From Verrucomicrobiota bacterium (GTDB lineage: Bacteria > Verrucomicrobiota > Kiritimatiellia > SS1-B-03-39 > UBA6053), in assembly GCA_020831635.1 (NCBI GenBank), contig JAFIGC010000024.1, positions 1-53,358 of the forward strand: DNA of 53,358 nucleotides, given 5' to 3'. Positions within the stretch are counted from its first letter, which is position 1. Each line of letters begins with the position of its first letter. The translations under genes and the position numbers were made by a program. Below the pieces are notes generated by a model. That model worked only from the letters and a program-made list of their open reading frames with translations, ran no database searches and was not told the origin of the DNA. Positions 10,057 to 10,669 of this stretch are shown here, piece by piece.

Positions 10057-10096
10057 GGATAAGGGATAAGGGATAAGGGATATGGGATACGGGATA
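10057..10096 (+). repeat. Tandem heptamer repeat GGATAAG
   Basis: Three perfect GGATAAG units followed by degenerate GGATATG, GGATACG and GGATAC. The repeat begins directly after the stop codon of the 35-residue peptide. It could vary in copy number by slippage. No gene frame crosses it. Confidence 0.85.
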
Positions 10097-10191
10097 CTCC
10101 GCACTCCGCACTTGTCATTGTCTCTCACAGAGGCGCAAAGGCATGGAGGGGAAGTGAGGAAAACCGACAAAGTTTGGGACAAAGGCAAAGG

Positions 10192-10236
10192 CCTTCCCCC
10201 TGCGCCCCTGCCGGTGCGGAGACCGGCGCTCCTGTC
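10192..10236. repeat. REP-like dispersed hairpin, copy B
   Basis: GCCGGT (10210-10215), loop GCGGAG, ACCGGC (10222-10227). It shares the loop and the C-rich flanks with copy A at 1-45. The one stem difference between the copies is compensated on the other arm (G-C here, A-T there). Confidence 0.65.
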
Positions 10237-10309
10237 CCGTTCGCCCCGATAAAGCCAGGCCACCAAACTAACTTCAACTGGGTATCCCGCGCGGGGGCGC
10301 GGGTTTAGC

Positions 10310-10491
10310 TGGGAAAAGCCTTCGGCCACTTTCGCTTCAATCCATCTGGCTTATGGGAGACCGGGCTCTTCAGCTTGCGTCGGATTTTGCGATTTCGGGG
10401 GGCTAACGCATCTTCTGATGGTGCCGTCCCCCCGAAAGCGCGAAAGGCGGCGTGAGATCAAGAGTCCGGTCTCCCCCGAAGGCTTTTCCCC
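10310..10491 (+). ncRNA. Candidate 182-nt rod-shaped structured RNA
   Basis: A closing stem pairs 10310-10325 with 10476-10491 (15 of 16). A one-sided 29-nt bulge (10326-10354) follows. Then 10355-10402 pairs with 10428-10475 over 48 positions: 38 Watson-Crick, 5 G-U if the plus strand is transcribed, 5 mismatches. The apical loop is 25 nt (10403-10427). The non-Watson-Crick positions favouring G-U in plus-strand RNA suggest selection on the RNA rather than on the DNA. Length and rod shape with a bulge recall 6S RNA, but no conserved 6S sequence was recognised and the bulge lacks a 3-prime side. A miniature inverted-repeat element is the main alternative. The structure ends about 180 nt before gatC. 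Confidence 0.45.
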
Positions 10492-10669
10492 ATTTTCTAG
10501 TTCCGCAAACACCTTCTGACTTATATTTTAAAAGCCATGCCAGAAGCAAGAACCCTTCTCCACCAAGTTTTCTTCCATAAAATAGATTTTCGAACTGGCT
10601 CTGGATCTTTGCCATGAATCCGCCATGAATCGCTTGACCTCCCGCGTTTCTCTCTGTACGGAACGCGCC

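Follow-up and report, generated by a model that had tools for sequence, protein, structure and literature searches.

A conserved rod-shaped RNA fold carried by short transposon-like elements in the class Kiritimatiellia

The window analyzed here is a stretch of 53,358 nucleotides from a Verrucomicrobiota bacterium (assembly GCA_020831635.1, contig JAFIGC010000024.1), in which a rod-like structure lies upstream of gatC, with a ferric-reductase-like gene on its other side. Folding of positions 10310 to 10491 reproduced the 182-nt rod of the original prediction, including its 15-bp closing stem, one-sided 29-nt bulge, and long arm pair with several G-U pairs. On the plus strand, the minimum free energy was -110.5 kcal/mol (z = -9.8), and none of 200 shuffled sequences folded as well; the minus strand folded more weakly (-94.6 kcal/mol, z = -7.35). 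The folding program pairs part of the predicted 25-nt loop. The RNA unit proved to be longer than 182 nt, since it includes a 5' hairpin (P1), and the surrounding element ends on the right in a degenerate terminal inverted repeat (Table 1). No promoter or terminator was found near the element in the window.

Table 1. Features of the RNA and its surrounding element in the window
Feature	Position	Strand	Basis or remark
Left module	10166..10285	+	BLAST among copies: common to many copies of the window genome (G000), absent from G001 and G002 copies
P1, 5' hairpin (CCCGCGC-GGGG-GCGCGGG)	10286..10303	+	Two-sided stem changes between copies; hairpin at equivalent place in distant lineages
Linker P1-P2	10304..10310	+	TTTAGCT in window copy; read from aligned copies
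P2 closing stem, 5' strand	10311..10325	+	Fold; one pair shows a G-C / G-U / A-U series across copies
One-sided 29-nt bulge (P3 position)	10326..10354	+	Fold; 27% mean difference between window-genome copies
P4 rod, conserved family core	10355..10475	+	Matched by models R1, R2, and R3; arms differ by 2-3% between copies
Internal loop I	5' side CAG, 10371..10373; 3' side AUC, 10457-10459	+	Column counts over representatives of 29 genomes
Internal loop II	5' side GA, 10383..10384; 3' side GG, 10446-10447	+	Column counts; most lineages have tandem G.A
P2 closing stem, 3' strand	10476..10490	+	Fold and pair counts
Right subterminal part of mobile element, weakly conserved	10492..10583	+	~84% shared with other copies (L002); 40% mean difference just right of rod
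Degenerate right terminal inverted repeat	~10584..10605	-	AGATTTTCGAACTGGCTCTGGA; consensus AGCTTTTCGAACGGGSTCTAGC

Both sides of the P1 stem are altered among copies (GAGC/GCTC, GCCC/GGGC, GCTC/GAGC, and GCCA/TGGC). The linker that follows reads GUGUGAC in most copies, while in distant lineages GGCAAAC and GUGAAAC are frequent. In several other lineages (L154, L162, L164, and L253), a hairpin replaces the bulge at the P3 position. The P4 rod of the window copy was matched by three covariance models, R1, R2, and R3, with values of 1.9e-29, 5.2e-29, and 3.1e-26, respectively. To the left, the module preceding P1 also occurs as copies without the rod, and neither a left terminal repeat nor a target duplication was recognizable when looked for in the window copy. 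Because its linker deviates and its left end is not recognizable, this is probably a worn copy of the element. Two further repeats occupy the same region. One, at 10166-10260 (GACAAAG..., CCGGTGCGGAGACCGGCGCTCC), recurs at many places in the genome, sometimes accompanied by the RNA and sometimes not; the other is a short tandem repeat with a GGGATA-like unit (gggataagggataagggatatgggatacgggatac) at ~10057-10097, in the interval that separates the ferric-reductase-like gene from the element.

Scanned against Rfam at gathering scores, the window yielded one tRNA, elsewhere in the window, and no 6S match. At permissive settings, the element again failed to match 6S or any credible family, the sub-threshold matches being only to animal and plant microRNAs and other palindromes; there was likewise no Rfam match to a group I or group II intron core. 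The proposed resemblance to 6S RNA was thus not sustained: the 6S model did not match, and the sequence is a dispersed multicopy repeat, not a syntenic single gene. The RNA family is previously uncatalogued and is missing from Rfam release 15, and no description of it turned up in the open-access literature searched.

The window genome (6.0 Mb, 308 contigs) holds 10 full-length copies with 92 to 100% identity and at least 14 partial ones. Counting halves at contig ends once, the total is at least 24 places, with several copies cut by contig ends, the usual effect of a repeat on an assembly. Among 57 relatives, BLAST matches were confined to members of the window's genus and of a single other genus in the family; the sister genome G002 contained ~15 copies, G001 contained 1, and G003 contained 0. 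Copies elsewhere are intergenic and lie between unrelated genes, and no common neighboring gene was found across them. A UTR role was rejected because neighboring genes are of mixed orientation. At the site upstream of gatC, G002 carries two tandem copies, one of them truncated, in the orientation opposite to that of the window copy (L082, G002:C439), which suggests a hotspot of repeated insertion, while G001 and G003 hold other sequence and no copy. Regulation of gatC was rejected on these same grounds, and from the comparison of these sites the link to gatC is judged accidental. The many copies and the lack of a conserved position upstream of gatC refute a single-gene reading of the predicted stable noncoding RNA; they do not refute the RNA itself, which the covariation described below supports.

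Copies in the window's genus lie within longer elements with inverted ends (consensus GCTAGASCCCGTTCGAAAAGC). The right terminal repeat, degenerate in the window, is intact in the C38 copy of the window genome, in the C430 copy of G001, and at many further sites. The G001 copy occupies a 367-bp element with near-identical inverted ends (22 of 24 end bases match). At C38, the window genome carries a 621-bp insertion, complete with both ends, that has no counterpart at the matching place in G002; the insertion at C14 is likewise missing from its matching G002 site. Target duplications were sought in the window's genus and could not be resolved. Eight copies of a 393-bp element were read in G152, which belongs to the class but is distant from the window genome. 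Most of these copies have CAGGGCAGACGCATCTT at one end and its complement at the other, giving a 17-bp inverted repeat, and four of them (L224-L227) are flanked by perfect 10-bp direct target duplications. Direct repeats of 10 bp flanking an element are a mark of DDE transposition. The elements of G170 (~425 bp) have a third set of inverted ends, unrelated to the others. Outside the rod, similarity between the G001, G152, and G170 elements is limited to short matches at chance level. Taken together, these comparisons show the fold sitting in short transposon-like elements that have unrelated ends in different genomes. Inverted ends were not recognized in the G037, G331, and G325 lineages, and a search by inverted ends for an autonomous partner with matching ends gave no transposon; contigs break at the repeats.

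A degenerate MITE, which had been offered as an alternative to a noncoding RNA, is upheld by these elements. They comprise many dispersed copies without a transposase gene, with terminal inverted repeats in G001, G152, and G170 (in the window copy, at the right end only and degenerate), target site duplications in one genome (the four G152 copies), and empty orthologous sites in G002 (C38 and C14). Target-primed reverse transcription was rejected: 5'-truncated copies are common, yet 3' truncations and internal deletions occur, and the inverted ends favor DNA transposition. No reverse transcriptase was recognized beside the copies when a retron msr-msd arrangement was considered, and a link to reverse transcriptases was dismissed for want of a clear association, with RVT_1 found in 10 of 13 carriers versus 6 of 13 genomes first classed as noncarriers, one of which (G023) later proved to be a carrier.

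Several irregular copies were also observed. Nine are broken inside the rod (L012, L016, L027, L013, L017, L024, L094, L119, and L122). The breaks are 5' truncations and internal deletions that extend to the right inverted end, a pattern to be expected of an unstable long palindrome or of incomplete transfer. In G170, L235 and L237 have a common left flank, and because the two flanks of L235 are inverted copies of each other, a larger palindromic repeat surrounds that element. In G009, two inverted ends of the window-genus type stand back to back at C173 (L035/L151; GGGTCTAGCTAGACCC), and after them comes a fragment that resembles the P2/bulge portion; a similar fragment lies at C19 (L033/L150), and the intact RNA copies of this genome have different closing stems.

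Within the window genome, the mean difference between copies is 2 to 3% in the rod arms, compared with 27% in the bulge, 26% in the left flank, and 40% in the right flank. Double (compensatory) changes in paired positions exceeded the shuffled counts in each alignment: 28 versus 9.4 cells within the genus (A1), 57 versus 14.8 in A4, 188 versus 59 in A5, and 360 versus 112 in A6 (29 genomes), where 40 of 42 pairs are affected. In each case, 0 of 500 shuffles reached the observed count. Only sequence was used to align A1, A4, and A5; A6, by contrast, was fitted to the model, which biases it in that direction. A3, likewise fitted to the model, was left out because it mixed strands, and RNAalifold was misled by truncated rows in A1. 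When partners were slid by 1 to 3 columns, pairing fell from 89-97% to 36-56%. These results bear on the simplest account of the elements, in which the rod is an ordinary MITE palindrome whose fold has no RNA function and whose similarity reflects recent copying. Such an origin would suit short, multicopy, often truncated sequences with inverted ends and no transposase. It would not explain why the rod arms are about 10 times more conserved than adjoining parts of the same element, why compensatory changes occur across genera at 40 of 42 pairs, or why loop bases are conserved among elements with unrelated ends; already disfavored by the covariation, it is in our judgment distinctly improbable.

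The earlier suggestion that G-U pairs are biased towards the plus strand also held, and the RNA-level selection at which it hinted is strongly supported by the covariation. In the paired positions of A4 (13 diverse copies), 62 G-U cells stand against a single A-C cell, and in A5 (20 more divergent copies), 94 against 23. At loci matched on both strands, the strand equivalent to the window plus strand scores higher. Among representatives of 29 genomes, AG occupies one side of internal loop I in 28 and AU the opposite side in 28; in internal loop II, GA mostly stands opposite GA. The G-U bias, the strand scores, and the loop bases are asymmetric under reverse complementation, so it is the plus strand that works, either as RNA or as single-stranded DNA. 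Judged from the aligned copies, the fold is under selection on this strand.

Selection at the protein level offers a poorer account. A 48-codon frame at 10309-10455 (+), with a CTG or ATG start and ending in ...PPKARKAA*, is open in 12 of 14 genus copies (ATG in some G002 copies), and differences in the bulge show a slight excess at third codon positions (206 versus 131 and 119). The rest of the frame varies most at the second position (188 versus 101 and 158), and the rod has no coding signature. Differences between lineages are mostly amino-acid changing and compensatory, Pfam was not matched, and the position of the stop relative to the fold is not kept in other families. That a small protein is encoded here is accordingly very hard to credit. 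One copy (L114) has a 12-nt insertion that keeps this frame.

A strand-specific hairpin of single-stranded DNA would produce much of the same covariation, and the rod might then serve a Y1 transposase (IS200/IS605 or REP-associated), as in palindrome-associated elements. The strand specificity of the structure and the subterminal hairpins at both ends are consistent with this idea, and Y1 transposases are common, being present in 23 of 26 genomes searched. Their numbers do not track the RNA: G002 has 1 Y1 match and ~15 RNA copies, while G008 and G010 have 12 and 16 Y1 matches, respectively, and no RNA match, so that copy number does not follow Y1 count as a REP/REPIN-RAYT relationship would have it. 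The inverted repeats and 10-bp target duplications of G152 are marks of DDE transposition, and a 121-nt rod with conserved internal loops is larger than the known end hairpins of Y1 elements. We therefore regard this alternative as unlikely.

Covariance models built stepwise from copies detected the fold in 5 (R1), 13 (R2), and then 51 (R3) of the 346 genomes of the class. Matches to R3 span 37 of its 121 genera, and many carrier genomes have at least 10 copies, where scoring stopped at 10 per genome and most assemblies are fragmented. When 388 genomes sampled from the phylum were searched with R2, matches were confined to this class. In a pattern scan of genome contigs, matches came only from two "PVC group bacterium" metagenome-assembled genomes, T3Sed10_216 and T3Sed10_339R1; T3Sed10 denotes sediment from Tanatar-3, a soda lake of the Kulunda Steppe (PMC13274419). 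A viral or plasmid origin was discarded after viral contigs (pattern scan) and plasmids (BLAST) gave nothing. The fold is high-copy and patchily distributed across the class. A host trans-acting noncoding RNA that became multicopy, whether 6S-like or a protein sponge, might be expected to have a rod shape, conserved loops, and intergenic copies like those seen. Most of the class, along with the close relatives G003, G004, G006 to G008, and G010, has no match; synteny is lacking, insertion elements surround the RNA, and 6S was not matched. A host RNA of this kind is improbable on such a distribution.

In our favored interpretation, which we consider fairly likely, the window contains a slightly worn copy of a mobile element built around a conserved structured RNA, a passenger of non-autonomous DNA transposons that works as RNA. 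In order, this RNA comprises a 5' hairpin, a short linker, a closing stem, either a bulge or a small hairpin, and a long rod interrupted by two conserved noncanonical internal loops. We infer that ordinary (DDE) transposases act in trans to move the elements, which would be non-autonomous DNA transposons, and that the RNA is a passenger retained for an RNA-level function. In its likeliest role, a read-through transcript or the element's own transcript would fold into a rod that binds a protein, our best guess being that binding occurs through the conserved loops. By analogy with IStrons, the two likeliest benefits would be that insertions become tolerable to the host or that the RNA helps the element's own transposition and spread. 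A broader proposal, which we advance tentatively and hold somewhat short of an even chance, is that one fold spread through the whole class by hopping between unrelated DNA transposons and acts as a transposition cofactor or protector or as a decoy binding a host factor.

These results add a structured RNA family that has good support (covariation at 40 of 42 pairs) and occurs in 37 genera, and they provide a case of a single RNA fold common to otherwise unrelated short transposons. They raise the testable question of whether RNA helps non-autonomous bacterial transposons to spread or to be tolerated. Intergenic repeats that are usually dismissed as MITEs can evidently conceal conserved RNAs.

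The bcr repeats and IStrons are the nearest precedents for how the element may work. The repeats bcr1 to bcr18 of the Bacillus cereus group are short, interspersed, and intergenic; bcr1 to bcr3 have been described as MITE-like, bcr10 and bcr18 have a conserved secondary structure with a predicted function at the RNA level, roughly half of the copies are transcribed, and a TTTAT motif has been connected with the idea of their mobility (PMC6542083, PMC3446304). They belong to a different host phylum and to that TTTAT-motif idea, in contrast to the single fold described here, which extends over 37 genera on several elements with unrelated ends. IStrons combine a group I intron with an insertion sequence (PMC4227781). 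They share with the present element the joining of a structured RNA to a DNA transposon and differ from it in that our element has no Rfam intron core and no transposase gene inside. Likeness to 6S RNA is confined to rod shape and size; the RNA described here is multicopy and mobile and matches 6S in neither sequence nor model. REP/REPIN sequences with RAYT are also dispersed intergenic palindromes, in genomes with Y1 transposases, but our element is much longer, has DDE-type ends and duplications (in G152), and does not follow Y1 in copy number. Like MITEs, the elements are short and noncoding, with inverted ends, many copies, and target duplications (in G152); what sets them apart is that they contain a conserved RNA fold, the same one in MITEs that are otherwise unrelated.
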